The notes under the pieces are model-generated. The model made no database searches, was not told where the DNA came from, and worked only from the letters and a program-made list of their open reading frames with translations. A DNA stretch of 48,063 nucleotides, taken from positions 1-48,063 of the IMG/VR virus record IMGVR_UViG_3300025728_000005; one strand, given 5' to 3'. Position numbers and translations under genes: made by a program. The DNA comes from a virus. The first letter of the stretch is position 1. Each line of letters starts with the position of its first letter. This document shows positions 26,977 through 47,205 of the stretch, piece after piece.

Positions 26977-27645
26977 TCAATCAGCCCCTTTCTCAGGCGC
27001 CTCGTACGGAACGGCAGGCGAGGCCTCAATGATGGTTTTAAGGATTGGCTTCCAGATCGCCCACCAGGCTGATGCGCGCGAATCCATTTCCTGAATCTCT
27101 TCTTCACTGAACGCCCACCACTCAGTCAGCGTGTGGAACTGGCAGCCGATCTGCATCTCGTCCGCTGTGTACGTCACCGGCCAGAGATCGCACTGCACAG
27201 ACTTGATCTGCGACAGATTGCCGACAGCGCCCCAGATTGAAGCGGCGGAGCGCAGGTCGGCGGAGCGCAGGTCGGCGGAGCTCAGGTCGGCGTAGCGCAG
27301 GTCGGCGGAGCTCAGGTCGGCGTAGCGCAGGTCGGCGGAGCTCAGGTCGGCGTAGCGCAGGTCGGCGGAGCGCAGGTCGGCGGAGCGCAGGTTGGCGTAG
27401 CGCAGGTCGGCGGAGCGCAGGTCGGCGGAGCTCAGGTCGGCGTAGCGCAGGTCGGCGGAGCTCAGGTCGGCGGAGCGCAGGTTGGCGTAGCGCAGGTCGG
27501 CGGAGCTCAGGTCGGCGGAGCTCAGGTCGGCGGAGCGCAGGTCGGCGGAGCGCAGGTCGGCGCGTTCGCCGCCCTCTTCATCGTTTAGCCATGCGCTGTG
27601 CTTCTGAATGATCTCGTCAAATTGTTCGGTGGTGAAAGTTCGCAT
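26977..27645 (-). CDS. Pentapeptide repeat protein
   Basis: This 222-residue protein starts at ATG 27645 behind a GGAG ribosome site. An N-terminal helix ([20 protein letters not shown]) leads to 21 tandem pentapeptides, A(D/N)L(R/S)(S/Y), which should fold as a right-handed quadrilateral beta-helix. A C-terminal domain with many Trp ([25 protein letters not shown]) follows. Some pentapeptide proteins mimic DNA and block gyrase (Qnr, MfpA); whether this one does is unknown. The repeat array at the DNA level is almost uniform, a sign of recent slippage expansion. Confidence 0.85.
27247..27561. repeat. 21 tandem 15-bp units encoding pentapeptides
   Basis: 315 bases consist of exactly 21 units of the 15-mer GTCGGCGGAGCGCAG and close variants (CTCAG or TAGCG forms; two units with GTTGG). 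Variation is limited to a few positions, so units probably expand and contract by slippage or recombination. Confidence 0.92.
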
Positions 27646-27673
27646 TGGTCTTACTCCATTGATTTGTGTTTGG

Positions 27674-28564
27674 TTAAAGGGCTGCGAGGGTCCGCTCGTA
27701 CAGCTCGTCATGCTCGGCGGACATTGGCGATTCAGTGTGCTGGCGCTCGGCGACTAGCACGCCGCCCGACAGGAAGCCGGTGACGATCGGTGCGACAGTC
27801 TTGGCCTGTGTCACCAGAAACAGGTGCCCGTCGTTGATCACGCGCAGCTGCGAACGCGGAATCAGGTTGGCCATCATGCGCATGTTGACCAGCGGAATCA
27901 GGGGGTCGTCATTGCCGGCCAGTACCAGCGTCGGCTGCTTGATCTTGTGCAGCCAGTGCGCTGAGGTCCATGCCCAAACCGCCATGGCTTGATAGTAATA
28001 ACCGCGCCCGCTGGGCGATTTCATCTTGCTGGTGTGCGCGGTGGCCAGCGACTTGTCGTAACGGAACGCGCCGCCGTAGATGTCCGGGGCGATGCGTGCA
28101 CCGTGCTCGGGGTCGGTGTAGCGGCGTGGCGAGGCCATCAGGCTCAGCACCTTGAGTGATGGGGGCACCATGGCGACCCCGCAGGAGGTGGCAGCAAGGA
28201 TAAGTCGTCTGCACCGGTGCGGCTGGTCATAGGCGAACTGCTGGGCCAGAAAGCCTCCCCACGACACGCCGATCACGTTGACTTGGTCATAGCCCATCAC
28301 GTCCAGCATCGTGGCGACGGTCTTGGCCATGCCGCGAAAGGTGTACGGCAGCAGCGGAGCCGGCGAACCTCCGACACCGGGCACGTCGAAAGCGATGATT
28401 TCTTGGTCAGGGTCCAGCTCATTGGTGAACGGGATGACCAAGTCCAGCGATGCGCCGATGCCGTTGAACACCACCAGCGGGGTCAGGTGCGATTTACCTG
28501 GGCGAACCGCCGTCCTGATTGACAGCCCATCCACTTGAACAGTGCGGAAAACAAAAGCCTTCAT
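27674..28564 (-). CDS. phaZ: Medium-chain polyhydroxyalkanoate depolymerase PhaZ (phage-borne)
   Basis: This 296-residue alpha/beta hydrolase matches the intracellular mcl-PHA depolymerase of Pseudomonas along its length: [70 protein letters not shown] and [11 protein letters not shown]. The nucleophile is Ser101 in GVSWGG, with Asp220 in NDDP and His247 in DGHLF, one residue offset from the triad I recall for P. putida PhaZ (Ser102/Asp221/His248). It should release hydroxyacids from PHA granules. No signal peptide is seen. ATG 28564 is preceded by CGGAG. The gene has its own promoter and operator and lies behind a terminator, so it is separated from the operon upstream. Confidence 0.9.
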
Positions 28565-28581
28565 TGCGTCGTGCTCCGGTT

Positions 28582-28599
28582 GGTCCTTATTGATGGACT
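28582..28599. promoter_or_regulatory. Operator site 1 (upstream of phaZ)
   Basis: The - strand reads AGTCCATCAATAAGGACC, nine of ten arm bases of the AGTCC-N8-GGACT consensus. It starts one base after the -10 hexamer of the phaZ promoter, so a bound regulator would cover the transcription start. Confidence 0.65.
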
Positions 28600-28600
28600 C

Positions 28601-28629
28601 ACTATGCGCTGACAATCCGATTAGGTCAA
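28601..28629 (-). promoter_or_regulatory. Promoter of phaZ
   Basis: On the - strand TTGACC (28629-28624) is separated by exactly 17 bases from CATAGT (28606-28601), giving a good sigma-70 promoter (five of six and four of six matches). The expected start of transcription, near 28594, falls within the operator palindrome. A second TTGACT lies 12 bases further upstream. Confidence 0.65.
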
Positions 28630-29007
28630 CGAACAAGTCAACGATTCGGACAAAAAGAAACCCGGCGAACCGGGCGGGTTTGGAGCGTTATTCAGATTGA
28701 TGGCGGCGATAGCCTTGGAATAATTTGGATTGTCGCTCAGCATCTTCTGAACACTGTCGCAATCGCCACCAAGAAAGGTGATTCGGTCATAACCAGCCTC
28801 CAGGCAGCAGGCGTAATCGCTGGTCATTGAAGAAAGCAGTGAGCGCATCTGCTCCAGATCCTCTCTGCATTGTCCGAGCAAAAGCATTGTTTCCGCATGA
28901 CTCTCGCAATTCAGCCGGTGCAGTTCTCGTATTTTTTCAAAATCGGCTGCATAGACATATTCGCCCGCTGCGCCTTTGAAGGTGTAACGCTTCACATCGT
29001 TCATCAT
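28621..29007 (-). CDS. Hypothetical protein
   Basis: This 128-residue protein starts at 29007 behind AGAGGGATCA, overlapping the stop of the small gene upstream. It is mostly helical with several Cys (YACCLEAGYD, GGDCDSV). No family recognised. Its 3' end contains the terminator at 28651-28674 and the phaZ promoter, so its last residues (PGSPGFFLSE...) are encoded by control DNA. Confidence 0.62.
   Translation of the reverse strand: MMNDVKRYTFKGAAGEYVYAADFEKIRELHRLNCESHAETMLLLGQCREDLEQMRSLLSSMTSDYACCLEAGYDRITFLGGDCDSVQKMLSDNPNYSKAIAAINLNNAPNPPGSPGFFLSESLTCSLT
28651..28674 (-). terminator. Intrinsic terminator upstream of phaZ
   Basis: On the - strand CCCGG-TTCG-CCGGG, a stable UUCG-type tetraloop hairpin, is followed by TTTCTTTTT. 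It lies inside the end of the preceding gene, so leftward early transcripts should stop here before phaZ. Confidence 0.8.
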
Positions 29008-30566: not shown

Positions 30567-31043
30567 TCACTGCTTAAACTCGATTCCGTAGGTTTTGACT
30601 AGGCGCTCGGTGACATGCCAGGTCAGGCCGATCTGTGCGCGCGCCAGCGACTTGCGGATGCCGATCTCGGCCAGCGCTCGCAGACGCTCGACCAGGGGCG
30701 CGTCCAGCTTCGGATCGACGCAACCATGCCCGCTGCCGTTGTTGCGCAGCGGCTTGCAGATGATTCCGTGCTGTTTGCAGACGGTGTAGACCTGGTGATC
30801 GGTGACGCCCAGCGCCTGCACGATCTTGGTCTTGTTCATGGTCTTGCCCATTTCACGGACCTTTTCGACGAAGGCGCGGTATTCCAGTTCCTCGGGCGAG
30901 ATAACCGGCTCGGTGCGCGACGGGCGCGGCTCAAACGTTGGCGGGGCCAAATGCTCAATCTTGCCGCCAGAGCGGAAGAAGGCGTCCGTGGCAGCGGCCA
31001 GTTCGGATCGATAGACCTGTCTGGTGTCGTTGTATTGGTTCAT
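30567..31043 (-). CDS. HTH protein, paralogue A
   Basis: This 158-residue protein shares its plan with the next gene upstream. Common parts: an N-terminal FFRSGGKIEHLAPPTF motif, a central helix-turn-helix around MNKTKIVQALGVTDHQVYTVCKQHGI, and a second one near the C-terminus (GIRKSLARAQIGLTWHVTERLVKTYGIEF). Likely a DNA-binding regulator. Starts one base after the stop of its paralogue. Confidence 0.7.
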   Translation of the reverse strand: MNQYNDTRQVYRSELAAATDAFFRSGGKIEHLAPPTFEPRPSRTEPVISPEELEYRAFVEKVREMGKTMNKTKIVQALGVTDHQVYTVCKQHGIICKPLRNNGSGHGCVDPKLDAPLVERLRALAEIGIRKSLARAQIGLTWHVTERLVKTYGIEFKQ

Positions 31044-36990: not shown

Positions 36991-37022
36991 TGCACACCTC
37001 GTATCGAATGATGCGTCTGTAA

Positions 37023-37088
37023 TTAGTCCTTGCGGCTTGCGACAGCGGGCGTCCGTCGTCTCTCTAGTGCGAGTGCTTTGGCTTCCAT
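37023..37088 (-). CDS. Possible 21-residue peptide
   Basis: A short frame starts at ATG 37088, with GGAG of the leading TAGGAG eleven bases upstream, 12 bases after the stop of the membrane gene, and ends at TAA 37023-37025. The peptide is basic (EAKALALERRRTPAVASRKD). Spacing and ribosome site support translation, but it is too short to be sure. Confidence 0.35.
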   Translation of the reverse strand: MEAKALALERRRTPAVASRKD

Positions 37089-37100
37089 GTGTGCGATCTC

Positions 37101-37268
37101 CTACCAGGCGCCAAACCACGCGCCAGTGCCGTGAACGATGGCCATCGGGAAGAACAGCGCCCCAGCCACCAGAAAGCCCCAGCTCGCCGCCTTGAGGCAG
37201 ACGATCACGTGGGTGAACCAGGCGGCGATCGCCCAGAGCAGGACAAACAAACCGATGTGATGCTTCAT
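37101..37268 (-). CDS. Small membrane protein, first gene of the leftward operon
   Basis: This 55-residue protein starts at ATG 37268 and stops with TAG at 37101-37103. Two hydrophobic helices (IGLFVLLWAIAAWFTHVIVCL and WGFLVAGALFFPMAIV) fill it. The ribosome site GGAG lies in the right arm of operator 2, so regulator binding to DNA and translation signals share bases. It occupies the spot where lambda-like phages start the pL operon or carry their repressor gene. Confidence 0.68.
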   Translation of the reverse strand: MKHHIGLFVLLWAIAAWFTHVIVCLKAASWGFLVAGALFFPMAIVHGTGAWFGAW

Positions 37269-37276
37269 GCGTGCTT

Positions 37277-37294
37277 ACTCCGTAATTACGGACC
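37277..37294. promoter_or_regulatory. Operator site 2 (left edge of the control region)
   Basis: ACTCC-GTAATTAC-GGACC has nearly the AGTCC-N8-GGACT arms, and its 14-base core TCCGTAATTACGGA is a perfect palindrome. It lies nine bases upstream of the first leftward start codon and also carries that gene's GGAG ribosome site. Confidence 0.6.
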
Positions 37295-37319
37295 TTCGTA
37301 TCCGGTCCAGGGTCGATTT

Positions 37320-37821
37320 ACTTCCCGCTGCGGCCTCTCTCAAAGCCGCACTGGTGAAGTATTCCCAGGCCCGCTACTGGCGTCAGCCTGGGTTTGTTGC
37401 GTCATCGGTGTAGCCCGTTGCCCGCTGCTGATTGCAGGACTGGCCGGTCGTCTTCGTGGGTGGGCTTCGAGCTTCCTACTCATGGCGTCAATCGGCATCT
37501 GTTCGCCATGGATCACAGGTCCTTACAACATGCACGCTGCAGCTCTGAATGCCCGACTGAGTGGGGCAGGGTGCATGAGGTCCGGCGATCCCAGCCGAGG
37601 CTATCAGGATCGCTAATTCAATTCTGTTAGCCGTGACCCGCAACTGGCGTCGGCCACAAGCTCAATCAAATTGTTCTTCCAGTCGCGGGCCTTTCGGCTT
37701 GTCTCCCACTGGATAACGGGTTTTGGTGCTTTACGCTGCGCACCCAGGTCCGTTGCCAACCCTCTGAACTGTTAAGGCCAGTTCATCGCTGCCTTTGTTG
37801 CTGGGCCGGTGGTTATCCGGC
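37320..37821. ncRNA. Candidate large structured RNA (orientation unknown)
   Basis: This gene-free stretch of about 500 bases contains an unbroken series of perfect or near-perfect stems: 37329-37334/37345-37350 within 37320-37324/37356-37360; 37364-37370/37386-37392; 37481-37487/37504-37510; 37529-37535/37571-37577 with inner 37550-37554/37564-37568; 37585-37591/37607-37613 with inner 37593-37596/37599-37602; 37629-37633/37695-37699 with inner 37637-37647/37679-37689; 37725-37729/37740-37744; 37765-37771/37779-37785; 37805-37809/37817-37821. Frames through it look non-coding. G-U evidence is mixed, so the strand is not assigned. It is flanked by operators 2 and 3. Confidence 0.6.
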
Positions 37822-37839
37822 AAGGTCTGTCGCTGTCGA

Positions 37840-37857
37840 AGTCCGTATGTCTGGACT
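37840..37857. promoter_or_regulatory. Operator site 3 (right edge of the structured region)
   Basis: AGTCCGTATGTCTGGACT has both arms of the consensus perfect. It lies directly right of the structured region and just before a short frame with a perfect ribosome site. Confidence 0.7.
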
Positions 37858-37875
37858 CGATGGAGGTAAAGTTAC

Positions 37876-37929
37876 ATGCAGGCAAAAGAATGCGCAAGGG
37901 GTATTTCAAACATTTTTCGTGGCGCGTGA
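37876..37929 (+). CDS. Possible 17-residue leader peptide
   Basis: ATG 37876 follows a strong GGAGGT ribosome site at 37862-37867 and reads 17 codons (QAKECARGISNIFRGA) to TGA 37927-37929. It lies between operators 3 and 4, upstream of the cro-like gene. Either a leader peptide or chance; the strong ribosome site is the main support. Confidence 0.35.
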   Translation: MQAKECARGISNIFRGA

Positions 37930-37952
37930 AATGAACCGGAAGCCGATATGGT

Positions 37953-37970
37953 AGTCCATCAAAAAGGACG
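37953..37970. promoter_or_regulatory. Operator site 4 (before the cro-like gene)
   Basis: AGTCCATCAAAAAGGACG has nine of ten arm bases. Its centre ATCAAAAA is close to that of the phaZ operator (ATCAATAA). TATGGT directly upstream could be the -10 of the rightward promoter; no good -35 is seen. Confidence 0.65.
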
Positions 37971-38028
37971 TTGCGCCGAGGGTTGCTTAAGGGCAATAAT
38001 CAGCCACCGACCATAAAGGACTCACACA

Positions 38029-38259
38029 ATGGCTATTCGACATAAAGGCCTTTTGGCCTGGCTGAAAACGGCAACGGACGAAGAGATCCAGGAAGCCGGC
38101 GTTACTCGCGACCATTTGAAATTGATCGGCTATGGTTACCGCAAGGCATCGCCTGAAGTAGCAGCGGTAGCCGAGGTGGTCACCAAAGGCGTCGTCACCC
38201 GCAAGGAGCTGTTCCCGGACACCTGGGAGCGGATCTGGCCCGAGCTGAAAGCAGCATGA
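38029..38259 (+). CDS. Cro/YdaS-like repressor
   Basis: This 76-residue protein opens the rightward operon behind AAAGGACT. The layout GLLAWLKTATDEEIQEAGVTRDHLKLIGYGYRKASPEVAAVAEVVTKGVVTRKELFP...WPEL fits small Cro-like proteins of the YdaS type, with recognition helix around residues 35-50 and a C-terminal WERIWPEL. It probably binds its own control region and is one candidate for the operator-binding protein. Confidence 0.75.
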   Translation: MAIRHKGLLAWLKTATDEEIQEAGVTRDHLKLIGYGYRKASPEVAAVAEVVTKGVVTRKELFPDTWERIWPELKAA

Positions 38260-38311
38260 AACACGAATCCGGGTAAATTCCCGGAATAAACCCACTGACT
38301 AGGTAACCCCT

Positions 38312-38518
38312 ATGGCATACGATGACAAAATCCACCGGCATGACCGGCAAGTGAAGATCATGCTCAACACGGGCATCTTCGATGACCTTCGCGACGTGGC
38401 CGTGGCCAACGGCCTGCAGCACAGCGTCCTCGCTCGCGAAGTGATCGAAGCCTTCCTCAAGGCTGTGGAAGAAACCGGCAAACTCCCCCTGGGCCTGGAT
38501 CAAAGAAAACGCGCCTGA
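38312..38518 (+). CDS. Small ribbon-helix-helix-like protein
   Basis: This 68-residue protein has a short strand (RQVKIMLNTGIFDDLRDVA) followed by two helices (LQHSVLAREVIEAFLKAVEE), a plausible Arc/MetJ-type ribbon-helix-helix outline. Probably DNA binding and regulatory. A weak CCGGG/CCCGG hairpin lies in the gap before it. Confidence 0.62.
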   Translation: MAYDDKIHRHDRQVKIMLNTGIFDDLRDVAVANGLQHSVLAREVIEAFLKAVEETGKLPLGLDQRKRA

Positions 38519-38543
38519 TCACGTAATTAAGGACTAATACAAG

Positions 38544-38801
38544 ATGCCCGGAAAAAATGCAGTAGTGATGGACTTCAGCGCTTCTTCTCAGCAGAGATTG
38601 GAGCGCATTGCGTCAATGTTGGGCATTACCGTGGATGAGCTGGCCGACGCGGCTCTGACCATCGGCCTACCGGGCATCAAGCAGGCGCTGCAAAGCGCCT
38701 GTGATACCAGCCCTGCGGAACAGGTTCAGATTGGTGGCGTCATGGCCAATGTCGTGTGTTTGTGGAGCAAACAGCCCCTCGCCAGGGAGGCCAGTGGCTG
38801 A
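38544..38801 (+). CDS. Small hypothetical regulator-like protein
   Basis: This 85-residue protein follows the half-operator-like TAATTAAGGACT, which also holds the AAGGA ribosome site. The first half is helical (SSQQRLERIASMLGITVDELADAALT), with the LGI-turn typical of small DNA-binding helix-turn-helix proteins; the end is less ordered. Function unknown; operon partner of two likely regulators. Confidence 0.62.
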   Translation: MPGKNAVVMDFSASSQQRLERIASMLGITVDELADAALTIGLPGIKQALQSACDTSPAEQVQIGGVMANVVCLWSKQPLAREASG

Positions 38802-38807
38802 CCGCGA

Positions 38808-38825
38808 AGTCCGTAATTCTGGACT
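38808..38825. promoter_or_regulatory. Operator site 5 (before the Rha gene)
   Basis: AGTCCGTAATTCTGGACT has both arms perfect and the GTAATT centre of operator 2. It begins seven bases after the stop of the preceding gene. Confidence 0.72.
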
Positions 38826-38866
38826 GGTTCCAAAGTGGTAGGAAAGATGCAAGAATCAGCGGGCAC

Positions 38867-38892
38867 AAAAAAGCCGCCTGGCAGGGCGGCTT
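38867..38892 (-). terminator. Hairpin with U-tract on the leftward strand
   Basis: AAGCCGCC (38871-38878) pairs with GGCGGCTT (38885-38892) around six bases. On the - strand the stem is followed by a run of U, so it fits a leftward terminator; on the + strand only CTCAAC follows. It lies in the leader of the Rha gene, where it may also act as an attenuator. Confidence 0.55.
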
Positions 38893-38922
38893 CTCAACTA
38901 CTAAACATGTGGACTTCATTGT

Positions 38923-39741
38923 ATGAACATTGCTCAAAATTGCAATACCTCCGTTCGTCTTCTCAAAGGTGAACATCACGCGCCACGTTTCGGCGACAAG
39001 CAAAACGTAGCGCCGACTATGTCTTCGCGGGAAATCGCCGATCTGGTCGAGGCTCGCCACAACGATGTTCTCACCACCATTGAGCGGTTGTTCACCAAAG
39101 GCCTTTTACGATCTGCTCGCAAAAGCCGCCGCGAATCCACTGGCGGGCGCCCAATCGATGTTTACGACCTGAGCGAGCGAGATACCCACCTGGTTGTCGC
39201 CGGGTATAGCGACGAGCACCGCGCAAAGGTTATTGACCGGTGGCAGGAGCTGGAGGTTGTTACGGACAAGCCAGCCTTCGATATTTCCGCAGCCCTAAGC
39301 GATCCGAAAACCCTTCTGGCCCTGCTCACTGAAAACGTGACCAAGGTCGTCGCACTCGAAGCCGACAATAGCGAGCTTTCGCAAGAAAACCTGATGCTTG
39401 AACAGAAGGTCGTCGCTGATGCCCCGAAAGTGGATTTCTTCAACGGAGTCATAACATCGCATGGCGTTCATGCTGTCCGAGATATCGCTCAAGCCATCGG
39501 CACCGGCCAGAAGCGACTGTTCGAGTTCATGCGTAAGCATCGCTGGATTGACCGGTTCAACACGCCATATCAGGCCAAAGTTGAGGCTGGATATCTGGTC
39601 GCCGATCCGCATATCTACAAAGACCCGGACACCGGAGAGCGCAAGACAAAGTTTACCTGCCGAGTGACTGGTAAGGGTTTTGCCAAGCTCCAGGCGTTGT
39701 GGGCCAAGCGCGATACCGATCTGCTCGGGGGTGATGTATGA
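38923..39741 (+). CDS. Rha-family regulator with KilAC (antirepressor) domain
   Basis: This 272-residue protein has an N-terminal Rha domain (about 25-115: MSSREIADLVEARHNDVLTTIERL...GRPIDVYDLSERDTHLVVAGY) and a C-terminal phage antirepressor KilAC domain (about 160-265: GVHAVRDIAQAIGTGQKRLFEFMRKHRWI). A coiled stretch joins them. Such proteins act as antirepressors or regulators of early genes. The start is ATG 38923, in a long leader with operator 5. Confidence 0.85.
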   Translation: MNIAQNCNTSVRLLKGEHHAPRFGDKQNVAPTMSSREIADLVEARHNDVLTTIERLFTKGLLRSARKSRRESTGGRPIDVYDLSERDTHLVVAGYSDEHRAKVIDRWQELEVVTDKPAFDISAALSDPKTLLALLTENVTKVVALEADNSELSQENLMLEQKVVADAPKVDFFNGVITSHGVHAVRDIAQAIGTGQKRLFEFMRKHRWIDRFNTPYQAKVEAGYLVADPHIYKDPDTGERKTKFTCRVTGKGFAKLQALWAKRDTDLLGGDV

Positions 39742-40106
39742 GCGATTTCATTACCCAGAAGAGCGTCCAAGCCCGCAAAGAACACCGCTGCGGAGAGTGT
39801 GGCGGATTCATTCAGCCCGGCATCCGCTACATGATCATATCGGGGGCCATGGACGGCCAAGGATTCAGTCACAAGCGCTGCGGCGGCTGTCATCACGCTT
39901 TCGTCTGGCTCGACCTCACCTTGAGGCTAGGGCCTTACGGGATGCCAGATGACGATGGGATCGAGTTCGGTGCCTTGCGCGCAGAGCTGGCCGAGTATGC
40001 GAGCGAGTCGCGCTTCACATGCCCGGAAAGCCTAAAGCACTTGCATGGCATGGCTGAGCGCCGTCGCGATGCTGAGCTTGTGCGTCTTGAGCGGGGTGCT
40101 GCATGA
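39738..40106 (+). CDS. Zinc-finger-like hypothetical protein
   Basis: This 122-residue protein contains HRCGECGGFIQPGIRY and KRCGGCHHAF, two Cys pairs suitable for one zinc, and a helical basic C-terminus. It overlaps Rha and the initiator gene by four bases each. Probably binds nucleic acid or protein; function unknown. Confidence 0.68.
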   Translation: MSDFITQKSVQARKEHRCGECGGFIQPGIRYMIISGAMDGQGFSHKRCGGCHHAFVWLDLTLRLGPYGMPDDDGIEFGALRAELAEYASESRFTCPESLKHLHGMAERRRDAELVRLERGAA

Positions 40107-40912
40107 AGTTCACCATCACGATCAACCAACCAAAGGCTCTTGAGTGGGGTCTGAACTCGCAGCAGGCGCTTCTGTTCGCCTTCGTCTACGAGTGCCCAAG
40201 CTGGACCAATCCGGTAAAGACCGATGAGGGTATTTTCTTCGCGCTGAGCAAGGCCAAGATCGTTGAGGAATTGCCTCTACTGACCGATAAGCCGGACACC
40301 GCCTATCGTCTCCTGAAGGCTCTGGAACAGGCCGGACTGATCGACCTTTCCAGCACATCGAGAATCACTCTATTTCGCCTGACTGAGAAGGCGCGACAGT
40401 GGAACCAGAAGCTTGACGGGTCGGAAAAATATCCGACCCCGTCGGAAAACATTGAAAATAAAGAGGATTTGACCTCGGAAAAATATCCGACCCAGGTCGG
40501 AAAAATATCCGATCTGACCTCGGAAAAATATCCGACAAATAAGGATACCAATAATAAGGTAACCAGTAATAAGGATGGGGGCGCAGCTTCGCCGCGCAAG
40601 TCGACGAAGTTTGACCCGATCCCTGCCAAGCCCAAAAACGTATCCGCCGAGTCCTGGTCCGACTGGTGCCAACATCGCCGGGAGATCCGCAAGCCACTGA
40701 CCGCCAAGACCTGCGAACAACAGGCCAAGGCGCTGGAGGCTCACCCGACGCCTGACGTCGTGATCAACCTGTCGATCAGCAACGGCTGGACCGGCCTGTT
40801 CCCGGACAAGGTGCTGCCGACCACCAGCGTGGCATCACGGCACAATGGCTTCGCTGATCGCGACTACAGCGCCGGCCTGACTGCCCGTGAAGGGGGTGGC
40901 TATGCGTTCTGA
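40103..40912 (+). CDS. Replication initiator (lambda O-like) containing the origin
   Basis: This 269-residue protein has an N-terminal winged-helix domain (about 1-95: FALSKAKIVEELPLLTDKPDTAYRLLKALEQAGLIDL), a low-complexity middle with SEKYPT repeats produced by the iterons inside the gene, and a C-terminal domain (WSDWCQHRREIRKPLTAKT) for helicase loading. The middle encodes the origin, as in lambda O. The DnaC-like loader gene follows with an 11-base overlap. Confidence 0.85.
   Translation: MKFTITINQPKALEWGLNSQQALLFAFVYECPSWTNPVKTDEGIFFALSKAKIVEELPLLTDKPDTAYRLLKALEQAGLIDLSSTSRITLFRLTEKARQWNQKLDGSEKYPTPSENIENKEDLTSEKYPTQVGKISDLTSEKYPTNKDTNNKVTSNKDGGAASPRKSTKFDPIPAKPKNVSAESWSDWCQHRREIRKPLTAKTCEQQAKALEAHPTPDVVINLSISNGWTGLFPDKVLPTTSVASRHNGFADRDYSAGLTAREGGGYAF
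40421..40535. other. Iteron cluster, probable replication origin
   Basis: Four exact copies of TCGGAAAAATATCCGA, each a palindrome, lie at 40421-40436, 40475-40490, 40497-40512 and 40520-40535; a partial copy TCGGAAAAC is at 40442. Spacing of 21-23 bases puts them on one face of the helix, with a 33-base gap. An AT-rich stretch with three AATAAGG repeats (40537-40576) follows and could be the melting region. The layout copies lambda ori inside gene O. Confidence 0.8.
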
Positions 40913-41708
40913 AGTAGTCACCCTGCCGAAAGCCACCGACCCTGGTACGGTCACGCGGGAAGCGCTGTGCGATGACCACGGCCCGTTCACGCAGAAGACC
41001 ATCAAGATTCTGAACAGCACGTTCGAAACTGAGTGCCCGTCCTGCGTAACCATCCGAAAGGAGGCAGAGAAGGCTGCGGAAATCGCGCAGGCGGCGCTTG
41101 AGGCGAAAAACCGCATGGAGCGTAAGCTTGGAGCGGCATTGATCCCCAAGCGCTTCGCAGGCCGCACGCTGGACGGCTACACGGTCGAGAACGAGGACCA
41201 GAAGGAGGCACTGCGGATATGCCGCAAGTACGCCGCGGTATTCCCGGAGATCTACAAGGCCGGTCGCTGCCTGCTGCTGCTGGGCAAGCCCGGCACCGGC
41301 AAGACGCACCTGGCCGTCGGCATCGCCAACGAGATCATGCGCACATCGGCCTTCACCGCCGTGTACCGCACTGTCGGCTCGCTCCTACAGGCAATCCGGG
41401 GCTCCTACGACAAATCCGGCACGCAGAACGAAGCGCAGATCCTGGCCGGCATGATCGAACCGTCCCTGCTGATCCTCGACGAGATCGGCGTCAGCAAGGA
41501 GAAGCCGAGCGACTTCGAGCTGACCACCCTGTTCGCTGTGATCAACGGTCGGTACGAGCAGCAACGTCCGACGGTGATCATCAGCAACCTGGATGCCGAG
41601 CATTTGCCGATGGCTATGGGTGACCGGTGCGTCGACCGTCTTCGGGAGGGTGGCGGAATCGCCGTAAAATTCGATTGGGAATCACAGCGCGGGAAGGAGT
41701 TCTTTTGA
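40902..41708 (+). CDS. DnaC-like helicase loader (AAA+ ATPase)
   Basis: This 268-residue protein starts at ATG 40902 behind AGGGGGTGG; an in-frame GTG at 40887 is less likely. The N-terminal part has CDDHGPF...CPSC, a four-ligand zinc motif; Walker A is GKPGTGKTH at 128-136, Walker B LLILDEIG at 189-196. It loads host DnaB helicase at the phage origin together with the initiator. Confidence 0.9.
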   Translation: MRSEVVTLPKATDPGTVTREALCDDHGPFTQKTIKILNSTFETECPSCVTIRKEAEKAAEIAQAALEAKNRMERKLGAALIPKRFAGRTLDGYTVENEDQKEALRICRKYAAVFPEIYKAGRCLLLLGKPGTGKTHLAVGIANEIMRTSAFTAVYRTVGSLLQAIRGSYDKSGTQNEAQILAGMIEPSLLILDEIGVSKEKPSDFELTTLFAVINGRYEQQRPTVIISNLDAEHLPMAMGDRCVDRLREGGGIAVKFDWESQRGKEFF

Positions 41709-41977
41709 TGACTACAAAAATTCGTGAATGCGTGGCCCGGGCGATCTGGAATATCCGCCGCGAGGAAGAAGACCGCTGCGACATGGAGCTTGAGGATATG
41801 GGGCTCGATCATTCCGTGTGGGCTGAAGCCGACGCCGCTATCAAGGCCATGGTGATCAAACTCCCAGAGAAATGCGAATACGCAGACTCCCAGAGCGACT
41901 ATGCAAAAGGCCATCGTCAAGGAAAGCGTGATGTTGTTGATTGCATCGAAGCCGCCGGCGCGAAGGTGGCCCCATGA
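41708..41977 (+). CDS. Small hypothetical protein
   Basis: This 89-residue protein starts at ATG 41708, overlapping the loader stop by one base, with AAGGAG upstream. It is helical and charged (RECVARAIWNIRREEEDRCDME; YAKGHRQGKRDVVDCIEAAG). Unknown function. Confidence 0.65.
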   Translation: MTTKIRECVARAIWNIRREEEDRCDMELEDMGLDHSVWAEADAAIKAMVIKLPEKCEYADSQSDYAKGHRQGKRDVVDCIEAAGAKVAP

Positions 41978-42123
41978 ACCTCCTAGTCATGTCCAGCACT
42001 GGCCGCATGCAGTCCTCGTGGCTAAAGGTCAACCTGATCCGTATCGGCTTGTGGCGCCCGCAGATCTGCGATGACGCTACGTCGGATGGTCCGCACTGCA
42101 AGATTCGCTGGGGGATGAAGTGA
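41974..42123 (+). CDS. Small hypothetical protein
   Basis: This 49-residue protein starts in an ATGA overlap. NLLVMSSTGRMQSSWLKVN, then RIGLWRPQICDDATSDG and a Cys/Trp end. Unknown function; support comes from coupled start and stop. Confidence 0.55.
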   Translation: MNLLVMSSTGRMQSSWLKVNLIRIGLWRPQICDDATSDGPHCKIRWGMK

Positions 42124-42491
42124 TGGAAGATCGTGAATTGTTGGAACTGGCGGCGAAGGCTGCTGGGTATGAGCTGCACGACCACACAATATTGGGCGAC
42201 GGCGTTTGGCTCTACGGTGAAGGAGAGTCGAAGTCGGAGGACGGACGAACCATATTCTTCTGGTCTCCGCTGGCCGATGACGGTGATGCGCTTCGGCTAT
42301 CTCGGTCCTTGAGCATTGATATCCACTACCTTGTCGATGTATCGCCGGCATACATGCCTTGTGCTGTAAAGGCCAGCCACTGGCAAGGTGCGTGGATGAT
42401 CGCTGAAGACATTGTCGGATCGTTCGACGGCAGCCACCTGCGTCTTGCAATAGTTGGAGTGGCAGCGCAAATAGGGGCGGCCAAGCCATGA
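42123..42491 (+). CDS. Hypothetical protein
   Basis: This 122-residue protein begins EDRELLELAAKAAGYEL, followed by WSPLADDGDALRLSRSL, a pattern I recognise from Pseudomonas phage hypothetical proteins of the DUF2591-neighbour kind. Function unknown. Overlaps the previous stop by one base and the next start by four. Confidence 0.66.
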   Translation: MEDRELLELAAKAAGYELHDHTILGDGVWLYGEGESKSEDGRTIFFWSPLADDGDALRLSRSLSIDIHYLVDVSPAYMPCAVKASHWQGAWMIAEDIVGSFDGSHLRLAIVGVAAQIGAAKP

Positions 42492-42664
42492 CCCCTCCCC
42501 AAGCAATGCAGGTCGCCCGCCTCCAGTCCCAAGGCTTCGCGCTGACCCAGGAACTCAAGGACGCCGTGAGGATGGTTCGCGGGGCTGACATCCGCATCGT
42601 GTTTGCCGATGGGACGATGAAACGCGGCCATCATGAGAGCAGGCCGCACAAGGAGAAGGTGTGA
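42488..42664 (+). CDS. Small hypothetical protein
   Basis: This 58-residue protein starts in an ATGA overlap at 42488 and stops at 42662-42664. It has a helical part (AMQVARLQSQGFALTQELKDAVR) and a basic end. Its 3' end holds the AAGGAG ribosome site of the next gene. Unknown function. Confidence 0.6.
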   Translation: MTPPQAMQVARLQSQGFALTQELKDAVRMVRGADIRIVFADGTMKRGHHESRPHKEKV

Positions 42665-43149
42665 TGGGCAAAACATTCGCTGAAAACCTGATTTTGGCTA
42701 GATCCAAGACCGGCATGACACAAAAAGAACTGGCGCGGAAAAGCGGCTTGAGTACTCAGCAGTTAGCTGGGTATGAAGTTGGTGACTCCGGATCAATATC
42801 AAGTCCACCCCTAACGCACGTGATCAAATTGGCAAGCGTTCTCGGAATTAGCATCGATGATCTGGTTCCCATTCATAAATTCAATGCTGAACCATCTCTG
42901 GCGAACCTGATCGCCGAGATTGACCGCCTGAAGTCCGACCTGCGCGAGTCAGAGGATCTGGTTGAGCATCTGCAGGACAAGCGGACCGAGCTGCAGCGTG
43001 AGGTTGAGACGCTGCGCAAGGACGCCGAGCGCTATCGGTGGCTGCGTCAAGATGATCTCGTGCAATTCCAGATCAGCAAGACTCACAGCGAAGAGGCCAT
43101 GGATCGAGCGATTGATGCGGCCATGGACAAGGAGCCCGACAATGGCTGA
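42664..43149 (+). CDS. XRE-type HTH protein with coiled coil
   Basis: This 161-residue protein has an N-terminal XRE/Cro helix-turn-helix (about 1-75: ENLILARSKTGMTQKELARKSGLSTQQLAGYE), followed by a coiled coil (LIAEIDRLKSDLRESEDLVEH) and a short basic end. No peptidase domain is present, so it is not a LexA-type CI repressor. It may be a regulator of middle genes and another candidate for the operator binder. Confidence 0.75.
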   Translation: MGKTFAENLILARSKTGMTQKELARKSGLSTQQLAGYEVGDSGSISSPPLTHVIKLASVLGISIDDLVPIHKFNAEPSLANLIAEIDRLKSDLRESEDLVEHLQDKRTELQREVETLRKDAERYRWLRQDDLVQFQISKTHSEEAMDRAIDAAMDKEPDNG

Positions 43150-43540
43150 CTTCGCACTGAAAAACGCCACCGACCTGAACCGGCTCTGCGGCATCCTGCA
43201 TGCGACGGACCTGACCAAGCCCAAGGTCGTCACGATCAAGGACGAGAAGCGCGCCGACGTGGCCAATCGCAAGATGTGGGCAATGCTGCGCGACGTGGCC
43301 AATCAGGTCGAGTGGTACGGCCAGAAGCTGTCGGATGAGGACTGGAAGCACATTTTCAGCGCGTCCGTGGAGAAGCAGAGGGCAGTGCCGGGGCTGGACG
43401 GCGGGTTCGTCGTCATGGGCATTTCAACCCGCAAGCAGTCGGCCAAATGGTTCAGCGATCTGTTCGAGGTGATGCACGCCTTCGGGGCTGAGCGGGGCGT
43501 GCGCTGGACTGAGCCAGACCGATGGGGAGGCAGGTACTAA
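43142..43540 (+). CDS. ninB: NinB recombination protein
   Basis: This 132-residue protein matches NinB (lambda Orf-like), which helps recombination by acting with SSB-coated DNA. The family stretch RKMWAMLRDVANQVEWYGQKLSDEDWKHIFSA is clear, as is STRKQSAKWFSDLFEVMHAFGAE. ATG 43142 overlaps the preceding gene by eight bases. Confidence 0.88.
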   Translation: MADFALKNATDLNRLCGILHATDLTKPKVVTIKDEKRADVANRKMWAMLRDVANQVEWYGQKLSDEDWKHIFSASVEKQRAVPGLDGGFVVMGISTRKQSAKWFSDLFEVMHAFGAERGVRWTEPDRWGGRY

Positions 43541-43565
43541 AATAGTTACCAATCGGCAAAAAATA

Positions 43566-43583
43566 AGTCCATAACCAAGGACT
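43566..43583. promoter_or_regulatory. Operator site 6 (before the gene at 43584)
   Basis: AGTCCATAACCAAGGACT has both arms perfect and ends directly at the ATG of the next gene; AAGGA of the right arm also serves as its ribosome site. A regulator here could start or stop a middle transcript. Confidence 0.68.
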
Positions 43584-43961
43584 ATGCGCTATAATCGCCT
43601 GACTGAAACGGACGTGAGGCAGGCGGTTATGGGCACCTTCTACATTCGATGGGCAGCATCTACATTTTTCGGAACCCTCTATCAGGAAAAGTACTGCCCT
43701 GAGTGGGATGACGCCGTTAATCGCTTGATCGACAAGCATTGGTCAGACGCCAAGCTTGACGATTACACGGTAACTTTAGGTGGTGTCGAGATATGGATAT
43801 CGAACGCCTTTTACTCGTACGGCTACCACTGGCGTATGCACGCTGATCCGCAGTTTCGTCCATCTGTTCGGATAATGGGTCGGCTCGACTCTCTGGTGCG
43901 ACATATCAAGGCAAAGCGGCATGACAAATATGTCGAGGCGATGCGGAATATTTGCCCATGA
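43584..43961 (+). CDS. Hypothetical protein
   Basis: This 125-residue protein is rich in aromatic residues (FYIRWAASTFFGTLYQEKYCPEW; VEIWISNAFYSYGYHWRMH), with a basic end. No family recognised. It starts right after operator 6, so its expression may be separately controlled. Confidence 0.66.
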   Translation: MRYNRLTETDVRQAVMGTFYIRWAASTFFGTLYQEKYCPEWDDAVNRLIDKHWSDAKLDDYTVTLGGVEIWISNAFYSYGYHWRMHADPQFRPSVRIMGRLDSLVRHIKAKRHDKYVEAMRNICP

Positions 43962-44263
43962 GTCGCCAAACCAAAGTCACCAAAGCCGCCCGAGGCCGCG
44001 ACTGTACGGTTAGGCTCCCAGGCTGTCCCAACGACACGGAAACGACCGTGCTCGCCCATTACCGACTCGCCGGCACCTGCGGGATGGGGATCAAGCCAAA
44101 CAACCTGCAGGGCGCATGGGCGGATGACTTCTGTCACTCCTGCATCGATGGTCGCATAAAGCACCCGGACGGCCTGACCCACGAAGAAATGCGCCTGTAT
44201 CACGCCGAGGGCGTTTTCCGCACCATCGACACGCTGATCAACGAAGGGGTGATTTCCGTATGA
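43958..44263 (+). CDS. YbcO-like nuclease (DUF1364)
   Basis: This 101-residue protein starts at ATG 43958 (ATGA overlap). RGRDCTVRLPGCPNDTETTVLAHYRL, then GIKPNNLQGAWADDFCHSCIDGR match the DUF1364/YbcO family, a small HNH-like nuclease of phage nin regions with Cys/His metal ligands. Likely cuts recombination or replication intermediates. Confidence 0.8.
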   Translation: MSRQTKVTKAARGRDCTVRLPGCPNDTETTVLAHYRLAGTCGMGIKPNNLQGAWADDFCHSCIDGRIKHPDGLTHEEMRLYHAEGVFRTIDTLINEGVISV

Positions 44264-44562
44264 GCCATAACTTCAAGGCTGGCGATCTGGCGCTAATCAT
44301 CAATGACAACCGTTTCTCAGAGAACATCGGTCGTTGCGTCGAGCTGAGGTTTCTAGTTGCTCAGGACGAGATATACATCTCTCAAGAAACAGGCAGCTTC
44401 ATCAAGAACACAAGTGGAAGCCCGGTATGGATTGTCGAGGGGAAAGGACTTCGAAGCGATGTCTTTAAGAATGGATGGTGCCAAAAGGCGCCGCACAATC
44501 TGATCCCACTGAAAGGCGATTTCGAGCCGGTCCAGCAGAAGGATCGCGAGGTAGTCGCATGA
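44260..44562 (+). CDS. Hypothetical protein
   Basis: This 100-residue protein starts FKAGDLALIINDNRFSENIGRCVEL, a beta-rich SH3-like outline, and ends in a charged tail. Proteins with this look are frequent in Pseudomonas phage nin-like regions. Unknown function; four-base overlaps on both sides. Confidence 0.65.
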   Translation: MSHNFKAGDLALIINDNRFSENIGRCVELRFLVAQDEIYISQETGSFIKNTSGSPVWIVEGKGLRSDVFKNGWCQKAPHNLIPLKGDFEPVQQKDREVVA

Positions 44563-44639
44563 CCGCCATCGCCGTACTCACCATCGCCTGGTTCTGCCTT
44601 CAGGGCCATGCCATCAACTGGTGGAGAAGCCGCACATGA
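44559..44639 (+). CDS. Very small membrane peptide
   Basis: This 26-residue frame begins in an ATGA overlap at 44559 and itself overlaps the next start. It consists almost wholly of one hydrophobic helix (TAIAVLTIAWFCLQGHAI) and a basic end. Perfect coupling to both neighbours supports it. Confidence 0.5.
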   Translation: MTAIAVLTIAWFCLQGHAINWWRSRT

Positions 44640-44827
44640 GCTTTGAACAGGCTGTCAGTGATTTCACCTGCCTCCAGATCTTGCGCGAGCGCATTCAGAG
44701 CGACACGGCCAATGCGGGCTGGTACATGCACTGCGCGTACAAATTAGGCAAAGGTTGTTCGGTGGATGAGGCGCTTGAGCTCCCGCCAAAGCCCACCAAG
44801 CCGACCCTGACGGTGGTGAGATCATGA
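44636..44827 (+). CDS. Small hypothetical protein
   Basis: This 63-residue protein starts at ATG 44636. It is helical (FEQAVSDFTCLQILRERIQSD), followed by YKLGKGCSVDEALELPPKP. Four-base overlaps on both sides. Unknown function. Confidence 0.6.
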   Translation: MSFEQAVSDFTCLQILRERIQSDTANAGWYMHCAYKLGKGCSVDEALELPPKPTKPTLTVVRS

Positions 44828-44982
44828 AGAAGCCCTGCCCGATCAACGCCAACCACGACACCAGCGCCTTCAGCACCTATCAGGATCTGTGGTGCCACGA
44901 CTGCCGACAATTCCACCCTTGGCCGCTGAAGCCTGATCAGCGGCCGCTGCATTCCAATAATCGAGACAAGCGGAGTAAGTGA
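44824..44982 (+). CDS. Small Cys/His protein
   Basis: This 52-residue protein (ATG 44824, stop 44980-44982) has CPINANHD and WCHDCRQFHPW, ligands for a zinc ion, and a basic end. Unknown function; translation coupled to both neighbours. Confidence 0.58.
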   Translation: MKKPCPINANHDTSAFSTYQDLWCHDCRQFHPWPLKPDQRPLHSNNRDKRSK

Positions 44983-45548
44983 TGATGGATACGACTGAGC
45001 TGAAGAAGGCCGCAGAGGCCGCAACGCCTGGGCCGTGGGAGTGTTCCGACAAGCATGATGGTCGGTTCTGGCATATCCATAGCGGAAATCAAGCAATTGG
45101 CAGTACCCATGCCGCCGGAAAGCAATCCGGTTACGCGAATCTGTTTGAGGCGAATGCGAAATTCATTGCCGCCGCCAACCCTGCCGCCGTTCTGGCCCTG
45201 ATCGCCGAGAATGATCGACTCAAGCGCGAAGAAAAGAACGATAAGATCGCCTATAAGGCGGCAATTGAGCGCCAAGAAGAACTACGGATCGAGCGCGACC
45301 AGCTCAAGGATGAGGTCGCCATAGGTGACAGAATCATCACCGAGCGCGATCGCCTGCTGGCAGCGATTCCAGAGTGCGGCCCCCATGGTCAGTGCGTACC
45401 GCATGCGATTGAGTGGGTTGAGCGGATGAAGGACGAGAACGAAGCGCTGCGTAAGGCGCTGACCACCATTCGCGAGGAATCGCACGACATCGGCGCCTGT
45501 GAGTGCGCAGCGGATGCCTTGGTAGATTCGCGGAAGGTGAACCCATGA
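44982..45548 (+). CDS. Ead/Ea22-like protein
   Basis: This 188-residue protein starts at ATG 44982 (or 44985). Its beginning, LKKAAEAATPGPWECSD, and the FEANAKFIAAANPAAVLALIAENDRL region are typical of the Ead/Ea22-like family of phage accessory proteins, here with a long coiled coil. Function unknown, non-essential in lambdoid phages. Confidence 0.8.
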   Translation: MMDTTELKKAAEAATPGPWECSDKHDGRFWHIHSGNQAIGSTHAAGKQSGYANLFEANAKFIAAANPAAVLALIAENDRLKREEKNDKIAYKAAIERQEELRIERDQLKDEVAIGDRIITERDRLLAAIPECGPHGQCVPHAIEWVERMKDENEALRKALTTIREESHDIGACECAADALVDSRKVNP

Positions 45549-45766
45549 CCGGCTACCTCATCAAGAACACCCCACACCAAACCAACCGGTTCCACGTCTA
45601 CCGTCCAGGCGAGCAAGCTCCCTCGTTCATGGTGCCGACCGTAGTCGAAGCGCTCGACCTGGTGGCGCTAGACAAGGCTCAGCCAGTCGAGCCGGTGGTC
45701 TGCCATAGCCCGCTGAATCGCTGCTTTGAGTGCCAATCGGGGGATTGCCCATGTCTGCCGCTGTGA
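45545..45766 (+). CDS. Small hypothetical protein
   Basis: This 73-residue protein starts at ATG 45545. It opens TGYLIKNTPHQTNRFHVYRPG and ends with CFECQSGDCPCLP, a Cys cluster possibly binding metal. It overlaps the VRR-NUC gene by 16 bases. Unknown function. Confidence 0.62.
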   Translation: MTGYLIKNTPHQTNRFHVYRPGEQAPSFMVPTVVEALDLVALDKAQPVEPVVCHSPLNRCFECQSGDCPCLPL

Positions 45767-46179
45767 CCGCAAGAAAGCCTAAGGCGATCGCCCTGCCGGT
45801 GCCGACGGAGCATGTTGAACAGGTGAAAGTTGTTACGTGGTTCCGCCTGCAATACCCGGCGATCAAGGAACTGCTGATCGCAATCCCGAATGGCGCACAT
45901 CTGGCCGGGACGCCGATCCAGCGAGCCAAGAAGATTCAGCGCATGAAGGCCGAAGGGTTCACCACTGGGGTGGCGGACCTGTTCCTGATGAAGCCGTCTT
46001 TCGGGTATTCCGGCCTATGGATCGAAATGAAGCGACTCAAGTATTCGCCATCCGACGTGAGCGACGACCAGAAGGCGTTCCAGGTGAGAGCGCTGGATAA
46101 CGGGTATCAGGCAGTGGTGTGCGGCGGCTTCGAGGCTGCGCGGGAAGCGATCAAGGCATATTTGCAGGGGGTGGTATGA
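45751..46179 (+). CDS. VRR-NUC domain nuclease
   Basis: This 142-residue protein starts at ATG 45751 behind GGGGGA. It carries the VRR-NUC (PD-D/ExK) core: EQVKVVTWFRLQYPAIKELLIAIPNG, TTGVADLFLMKP (catalytic Asp) and LWIEMK (Glu-X-Lys), with SDDQKAF downstream. Phage members cut branched DNA such as Holliday junctions, useful before packaging. Confidence 0.87.
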   Translation: MSAAVTARKPKAIALPVPTEHVEQVKVVTWFRLQYPAIKELLIAIPNGAHLAGTPIQRAKKIQRMKAEGFTTGVADLFLMKPSFGYSGLWIEMKRLKYSPSDVSDDQKAFQVRALDNGYQAVVCGGFEAAREAIKAYLQGVV

Positions 46180-46385
46180 GCAAGTGGGTGGCGCGGGTCC
46201 GCTGCAAATGCGGTCATGCATATTCAGGGGAAATATTCAGTGCATCTGACTTTCGGATAATCCAAGTATGCCCAACCTGCGGGAGCAAGGAGGAATGGCG
46301 CGACACGGTAGAGCGCTGGGTATCAACCTCGAGGTGGAATAGTCCGCGCACATGGGGTACTGGCTATTGGGAGGTTAAGGCATGA
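46176..46385 (+). CDS. Zinc-ribbon protein
   Basis: This 69-residue protein has RCKCGHAYSG and VCPTCGSKEEW, a C-x-C...C-x2-C zinc ribbon, then a Trp-rich end. ATGA overlap with the nuclease. May bind nucleic acid or RNA polymerase; function unknown. Confidence 0.65.
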   Translation: MSKWVARVRCKCGHAYSGEIFSASDFRIIQVCPTCGSKEEWRDTVERWVSTSRWNSPRTWGTGYWEVKA

Positions 46386-46921
46386 AATATCTAAACATCG
46401 TCACAGCAGTGGTCCGGGCACTATCGACCGACAACATGGGCGGCGGCATGAACTTCGAGCCTCGGGTGCAGGACACCAAGCTCAAGGGGGAGATCACTGG
46501 CAAGGATGACCAGCTGCTGCACGACAGCATGATCCGGGCTCGCCTGCATGCCACGCTGGCCCCGGAACACTGGGAGATCCTGAAGGCCAAGTTCTCACCG
46601 GACCTGAACCATAAGCGCGAATCCATTCGGGCGGTGCGTACCCGAGTGAAGACGCCTGCGCCGGAACGGTTCAGGGATGCCGCGGTGCTGACCTGGGCCA
46701 TGCCGAAACTGCCGGGGAAGGATGGGAAGCGCTCAGCTACCACGCTGCCGGCCGAATGGTACGAAACTGATCGCTGGTGTGACGATCCTGTGCCAGAGAG
46801 AACCAAGCAGCGCTGGAGGCGTGACATTTCCATCGGGTTGGAGGCGGAAGTGAACAAGGCGCTAGCCATTGCTCAGGAAGCGCTGGAGCCGCTGGGAATC
46901 TTCCGCGAACAGGTAGCGTGA
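46382..46921 (+). CDS. Last early gene, possible late-transcription regulator
   Basis: This 179-residue protein has no family I can name with certainty. Mostly helical, basic in the middle (FSPDLNHKRESIRAVRTRVK), with WYETDRWCDDPVPERTKQRWRRDI near the end, which looks like a helix-turn-helix. It is the final gene of the rightward early operon, next to the late promoter, leader and terminator: the place of Q in lambda. A late antiterminator or activator role is inferred from place only. Confidence 0.6.
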   Translation: MKYLNIVTAVVRALSTDNMGGGMNFEPRVQDTKLKGEITGKDDQLLHDSMIRARLHATLAPEHWEILKAKFSPDLNHKRESIRAVRTRVKTPAPERFRDAAVLTWAMPKLPGKDGKRSATTLPAEWYETDRWCDDPVPERTKQRWRRDISIGLEAEVNKALAIAQEALEPLGIFREQVA

Positions 46922-46982
46922 TAAATATATTTGCTGGCCCATTGCCAAGACTGGCGCTGTGGCGTATCGTATTGTCATCCTG

Positions 46983-47012
46983 TTGCAATTGCGTTCAGGG
47001 CTTGAATATATA
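46983..47012 (+). promoter_or_regulatory. Probable late promoter
   Basis: TTGCAA (46983-46988), 18 bases, then TATATA (47007-47012). Transcription would start near 47019, inside operator 7. This is the only clear promoter before the lysis and structural genes. Confidence 0.65.
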
Positions 47013-47013
47013 G

Positions 47014-47031
47014 AGTCCATGATTAAGGACT
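47014..47031. promoter_or_regulatory. Operator site 7 (late promoter)
   Basis: AGTCCATGATTAAGGACT has both arms perfect. It begins one base after the -10, exactly as at the phaZ promoter, so a bound protein would cover the transcription start. Confidence 0.75.
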
Positions 47032-47035
47032 GCGA

Positions 47036-47205
47036 GTTTCAACCAGCGGCCAGAGTTGCCCGACTAGTTCCCTCCTTCGAGTCGGGGTATCTGGATACGG
47101 TTTAGCCGGTTAGTACCGTAACATCGCAAAACACCGGCAGCCTGCGAGCCCTACTAACGCTTACTCAGGGGGTTGTGCAGGCGGGCAGACTGGGAAGACA
47201 GTCAT
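47036..47205 (+). ncRNA. Structured leader RNA with predicted pseudoknot
   Basis: Downstream of the late promoter, four stem-loops follow each other: 47059-47065/47080-47086 within 47050-47054/47090-47094; 47096-47101/47115-47120; 47141-47145/47177-47181 with inner 47149-47152/47167-47170; and 47188-47192/47199-47203. The loop of the second stem contains GCCGGT (47105-47110), which can pair with ACCGGC (47133-47138), an H-type pseudoknot. No convincing gene lies here (one 32-codon frame at 47204 runs into the tRNA). It may be an antitermination element, a regulatory RNA or a tRNA leader. Confidence 0.58.

Follow-up and report, generated by a model that had tools for sequence, protein, structure and literature searches.

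What do the copies of the interrupted palindrome AGTCC-N8-GGACT do in the phage genome in which they are dispersed, and which factor recognizes them? The genome in question is the IMG/VR virus record IMGVR_UViG_3300025728_000005, of which positions 1 to 48,063 (the window, 48,063 nucleotides) make up the whole virus record, a 48-kb, Pseudomonas-phage-like genome with a 127-bp terminal direct repeat. A first-pass annotation had taken the palindromes for the regulon of one phage protein, and we observe that the family is indeed real and conserved and behaves as though a single trans-acting factor encoded by the phage recognized it, binding itself being putative. Comparison with related phages leads us to favor, with modest confidence, the reading that the palindromes are DNA operators of the protein of open reading frame (ORF) 38312 (ORFs and sites are named by their start positions), a putative ribbon-helix-helix (RHH) regulator whose gene lies a short way ahead of one for an antirepressor (Table 1).

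The palindrome family in the window and in related phages

A genome scan finds all seven sites of the first-pass annotation (28582, 37277, 37840, 37953, 38808, 43566, and 47014) with 8 to 10 of 10 arm bases, including its four perfect copies (37840, 38808, 43566, and 47014), against a mean of 0.047 perfect copies expected in the window from first-order Markov simulation; the simulated rate of about 1 per Mb agrees with the earlier estimate. When one mismatch is allowed, seven sites are found versus 1.26 expected, and the maxima over 300 simulated runs were one perfect copy and five copies with at most one mismatch, while the reversed control pattern is absent from the window. Six of these seven sites are intergenic or in leaders, and the remaining one, at 2712, lies inside a coding region and is chance-like. 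The class with two mismatches (8 of 10 arm bases) is not enriched in the window (23 versus 17.9 expected), and the 37277 site therefore rests on its conservation in a relative rather than on statistics. Furthermore, a look-elsewhere search over all 5-base arms and spacers of 0 to 20 returned three families with at least four copies versus 0.5 expected, two of them being other arm types unrelated to AGTCC-N8-GGACT, so that within-window statistics alone are only suggestive. It is conservation in relatives that carries the case.

Each of the seven sites is found at an equivalent place in a relative, and the comparison that the first-pass annotation had proposed thus bears it out (L010, L293 to L296, and L298). 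L010, a 5.9-kb relative with homologues of the Cro-like protein (87%) and of 38312 (94%), keeps equivalents of 37014, 37277, 37840, 37953, 38518, and 38808, with stable arms and drifting centers: position and arms are maintained at 37840, the arms are identical and two of eight center bases are changed at 37953, and 17 of 18 positions are identical at 38808. The equivalents of 37277 (GCTCCGTAATTATGGACC, amid poorly conserved flanks) and of the 37014 half-site are conserved islands, and the 38518 half-site is maintained as CACGTAATTAAGGAC, although taken singly the weak sites 37277, 37014, and 38518 may be chance matches. The equivalent of 43566 in L295 is AGTCCCTAACCACGGACT, in which both inner A bases are replaced by C within flanks that are otherwise 97% identical. 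In the late regions of L293, L294, L295, and L296, the 47014 site is maintained with altered centers (with two mismatches in L296), and L298 retains the 28582 site without any change, ahead of a phaZ-like ORF. In the window, this phaZ-like esterase/depolymerase gene (27674 to 28636, minus strand; 98% identical in L298) belongs to the early-left region. A 42-kb relative, G002, has six sites that match a variant of its own; five of them fall outside genes, and one of these five lies between late structural genes. The core half-site is RGTCCNT, the position adjoining the arm varies freely, the whole site measures about 18 bp, and there are about seven to nine sites in the window.

With respect to placement, the first-pass annotation is mostly right in assigning every site to a gene start or a promoter, and the true sites are all located outside main genes; the assignment fails for 38808, which follows an ORF and precedes a terminator-like stem, and for 47014, which is inside the late leader. 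The two center types that had been described are present as sequence (GTA..TCT at 37840 and 38808; AT....AA at 37953, 43566, 47014, and 28582), but the center is not constant between orthologues of one site (AT..AA at 47014 in the window, CT..AG in L293, and TT..AG in L294), and the graded affinity that had been suggested is therefore neither supported nor excluded. Around the late site, CATCCTGT, which follows the probable late promoter, is conserved in relatives, and Proteo-phage-1 RNA (Rfam RF03044, function unknown) occupies 47044 to 47142 directly after the palindrome. TTGCAA-17-ATATAT, directly next to the 47014 site, was rejected as a promoter, its -35 element being unconserved and a better late promoter lying upstream, at 46942 to 46970. 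Extra matches of the form AGGCCCT..AGGGCCT, located ahead of start codons and in the vicinity of Q-like genes, appeared terminator- or ribosome-binding-site-like on inspection and were left uncounted.

The ORF 38312 module and its link to the palindrome

A cro-like gene is followed in the window by ORFs 38312 and 38544, the operator-like site 38808, a terminator-like stem, and the antirepressor gene 38923, and Ant-type similarity is found downstream of the module in most relatives. Homologues of the 68-amino-acid ORF 38312 were collected from 42 viral loci (two of them fragments from phages closely related to that of the window) and 10 loci of Pseudomonas genomes, and nearly all of these carry one or two RGTCCCT-N4-AGGGACY palindromes about 445 to 475 bp from its start codon, after the second small ORF and ahead of a terminator-like stem; a second lineage has GGTCCCTGTTTCGGGACT at this post-module position. 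Among the examined relatives with a 38312 homologue, nearly all hold a single or tandem palindrome at the position equivalent to 38808. In whole-record scans, RGTCYCT-N4-AGGGACY with at most one mismatch is present in 22/22 related records (20 picked for a 38312 homologue and 2 for a Q-like gene) versus 0/24 control records, which are phages picked for the leader at the leftward promoter (P_L) and lacking a 38312 homologue.

The same association is observed at a distance from the module. A half-palindrome at the leftward promoter is found in all 31 distinct leaders of 38312-homologue carriers versus 8/100 others (P of about 1e-22 before correction for relatedness, kinship overstating such P values), and the leader with the half-palindrome is located 2 to 6 kb from the 38312 homologue. 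In addition, relatives diverge strongly in CI, in Cro, and in their immunity operators at the leftward promoter, whereas the palindrome, including the tandem post-module sites, persists.

The 38312 protein is a putative RHH regulator. Two helices (22 to 32 and 39 to 55) are predicted after a low-confidence N-terminal stretch, in a monomer model that is itself of low confidence; a distant homologue (31%) matches the NikA-like RHH Pfam family PF21983 above the cutoff, and a paralogue is found at 36%. A tblastn search of 38312 against named phages gave no match, and its 50% homologue gave matches at E = 0.5 only. Two phages with an AGTC-type leftward leader, L126 and L244, encode another MAYDD-starting RHH protein after cro (MAYDDPSHKRS..., NikA-like), which may be a sister regulator.

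If the palindromes are indeed operators of the 38312 protein, this protein would be produced early, from the rightward operon, and would bind them as DNA, perhaps together with its neighbor 38544, close to where the leftward and rightward transcripts begin, at the point where its own module ends ahead of the antirepressor gene, and in the late leader and the short gaps before several other genes, damping those transcripts. We infer 38312 as the binder, an RHH fold, and repression (by roadblock or promoter occlusion) rather than activation, the last being guessed from the position of the sites. The homologue in L014 would be expected to favor GGTCCCTAATTAGGGACC, and the window protein AGTCC[AG]T sites.

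Several observations weigh against assigning the palindromes to 38312. The palindrome and the gene lie within about 500 bp of each other, so that their linkage is partly hitchhiking; the distant P_L sites (2 to 6 kb) and the dispersed sites are the stronger linkage evidence, being free of this effect. G002 has no 38312 homologue on its record, which begins right at the post-module site, and eight leaders without a close 38312 homologue carry an AGTC-type P_L half-palindrome. As for the protein, 38312 has no Pfam match, its AlphaFold monomer model is of low confidence (mean predicted local distance difference test score of 61), a Foldseek search with this model found no meaningful fold match, and hhalign comparison is weak (P = 0.003 over 25 columns for Arc and 0.03 for Mnt, with manually entered Arc and Mnt sequences). 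Finally, the P_L site occupies a position at which every one of these phages has a hairpin of some kind ahead of a boxA, and it may have an additional RNA role.

The window encodes no S24-type CI (no Peptidase_S24 domain anywhere in it), and there is no CI gene in the interval between the leftward leader and cro (37822 to 38029), where the phage PseuP_224 has one; L010 likewise has no CI-like ORF between leader and cro. A tyrosine integrase was not found in the window, which does encode a serine recombinase (24963 to 25412, minus strand; PF00239, E = 3.6e-25). With neither an S24-type CI nor a tyrosine integrase found, early regulation in the window phage may depend mainly on the 38312 system. 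A bolder and, to our minds, doubtful proposal is that of a stoperator-like system built on a small RHH protein, with dispersed palindromes in short gaps, one early protein damping early, late, and accessory transcription, and the main switch taken over by it in the window lineage.

Other binders, RNA hairpins, and chance

The sites might instead be DNA operators of another protein, namely 38544, the Cro/YdaS-like 38029, the antirepressor-type protein, the helix-turn-helix (HTH) protein 42664, or a host factor, an alternative to which we give limited credence. In a phage without an S24-type CI repressor some other protein must regulate, 38029 and 42664 are of HTH type, and 38544 always adjoins 38312 as part of the same module, but 38544 is far less conserved than 38312, and a host factor leaves the 0/24 result in module-less phages unexplained. 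Cro in particular is an unlikely binder, judging from genome comparison, because relatives with other immunity regions retain the sites: phages in which the palindromes are retained differ in their type of Cro and have unrelated cro and CI genes. Conversely, PseuP_224 and JBD68 carry a Cro homologue and no palindromes in the loci scanned; in PseuP_224, whose Cro is 51% identical, the scanned locus has TTACC-type repeats instead. Among the candidate binders that had been listed earlier (38029, 38312, 38544, and 42664), 38312 is thus retained, possibly with 38544, and Cro 38029 and HTH 42664 are disfavored.

That the sites act as RNA hairpins where phage transcripts begin, in nut/put-like antitermination or as a translational element, is improbable. 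Most sites are transcribed, and 38808 stands ahead of a terminator-like stem, like lambda nutR. The leftward-operon leader (37364 to 37821, minus-strand sense; about 460 bp) is 80 to 87% conserved among other Pseudomonas phages and for the most part has no gene annotated in it. At the P_L site of relatives, a second hairpin and then boxA-like CGCTCTTTAACA follow, and because of these two hairpins and the boxA-like sequence a nut-like RNA was first suspected; relatives, L010 included, have the boxA-like sequence at P_L, and none was seen beside the P_L site of the window or beside the right-operon sites. However, phages without the RHH gene have the boxA leader and no copy of the leader hairpin was found in their right operon (none above control, the best match scoring 12.35 versus 12.2 in controls), and the generic nutR/nutL idea was rejected. 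The arms are conserved without compensatory pairs (no compensatory double change at pairs 2 to 5 and 7 over 48 distinct sites), and orthologous sites have A-A, C-C, C-G, or U-G as pair 6/13. Right-operon sites had seemed enriched in G-U wobble, which also hinted at a hairpin, an idea that was abandoned on finding that the P_L mismatches are A-C in the transcribed sense, and the bias therefore follows the DNA strand; P_L variants show C-A and A-G mismatches in that sense. The T/G mismatches remain on the same DNA strand at sites transcribed in opposite directions, and the P_L and post-module sites of the window match at 16 of 18 positions on the same DNA strand and at 12 of 18 in the RNA sense. 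These substitution patterns argue for recognition as DNA over an RNA hairpin.

Chance palindromes near genes, conserved only via overall relatedness, can be dismissed for the family as a whole: two other arm families reach at least four copies and the relatives are partly near-identical, but arms are kept while centers and flanks diverge, and the records split 22/22 versus 0/24.

Table 1. Positions of the palindromes, module genes, and transcription signals in the window
Feature	Position	Strand	Remarks
68-aa protein, putative RHH (MAYDDK...), PHROG 4113	38312..38518	+	best candidate binder
85-aa second small protein of the module	38544..38801	+	possible partner; 50% identical in L010
Antirepressor-type protein (Phage_pRha + KilAC/ANT)	38923..39741	+	
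Cro/YdaS-like protein	38029..38259	+	disfavored as binder
Perfect palindrome AGTCCGTATGTCTGGACT	37840..37857		11 nt downstream of the -10 of the leftward (P_L-like) promoter
Palindrome AGTCCATCAAAAAGGACG	37953..37970		one mismatch; leader of rightward (cro-like) operon
Perfect palindrome AGTCCGTAATTCTGGACT	38808..38825		directly after ORF 38544-38801, ahead of terminator-like stem and antirepressor gene
Perfect palindrome AGTCCATAACCAAGGACT	43566..43583		gap between two ORFs, before ORF 43584
Perfect palindrome AGTCCATGATTAAGGACT	47014..47031		late leader, between Q-like ORF 46382 and Proteo-phage-1 RNA
Palindrome, minus-strand sense AGTCCATCAATAAGGACC	28582..28599		one mismatch; short gap upstream of phaZ-like gene (minus strand)
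Weaker site ACTCCGTAATTACGGACC	37277..37294		two mismatches; upstream of ORF 37101-37268 (-)
Half-site ATCACGTAATTAAGGACT	38518..38535		25-nt gap between ORFs 38312 and 38544; overlaps possible Shine-Dalgarno
Half-site CGTCTGTAATTAGTCCTT	37014..37031		upstream of leftward gene (ATG at 36991)
Inferred leftward promoter TTGCGC-17-TAACTT	37869..37897	-	position inferred; sequence kept in L010
Terminator-like stem GCCGCC..GGCGGC	38873..38892		downstream of 38808 site; same order in relatives
Probable late promoter TTGCCA-17-TATCGT	46942..46970	+	upstream of 47014 site

Elsewhere in the window, on the minus strand, we observe a sub-threshold Pfam match to the SutA RNA-polymerase-binding domain (30567 to 31043; E = 1.7e-4) and a pentapeptide-repeat-type protein (26977 to 27711).

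If 38312 is the binder, a group of Pseudomonas phages would have a portable regulator-plus-operator layer, independent of CI/Cro immunity and extending to early, late, and accessory genes, and PHROG 4113, so far without a function, would gain a candidate function for annotators. With the gene, the sites, and natural variants of both listed here, binding specificity and protein-site coevolution are directly testable.

Comparison with known systems

In the literature we found no description of the AGTCC-N8-GGACT motif, and the known systems nearest to it each share some of its features. Like lambda nut and HK022 put, it has a P_L position followed in relatives by a hairpin and a boxA-like sequence, but there is no conserved RNA pairing, and module-less phages have no right-operon copy. 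The lambdoid OL/OR operators with Cro and CI likewise lie near the leftward and rightward early promoters; here, in contrast, there are no clusters of three, the sites reach far beyond the immunity region, the palindromes are independent of the type of Cro and CI, and the window holds no S24-type CI.

The stoperators of cluster A mycobacteriophages (L5 and Bxb1) are dispersed repressor sites at nonpromoter positions, with a motif that drifts between phages together with the repressor (PMC6550527). The dispersal of the sites, mostly away from promoters (about seven to nine in the window and six in G002), is in line with this arrangement, but the L5 sites are 13 to 14 bp long, asymmetric, and oriented with transcription, number 20 to 30 per genome, and are bound by a repressor monomer, whereas those described here are 18-bp palindromes in smaller number, with a block of elongation that is putative.

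The P22 immI region (mnt, arc, and ant) resembles the module in that small putative RHH genes adjoin one for an antirepressor, a GTCC..GGAC palindrome lying between them; the sequence similarity of 38312 to Arc and Mnt is insufficient for a claim of homology. Arms of the type GGTCC/GGACC are also a feature of the Mnt operator. Control of ant in P22 is exerted by mnt and arc (PMC11016777); here, the module differs in being located in the early right operon after cro, with a wider spacing of the arms and with many dispersed sites.

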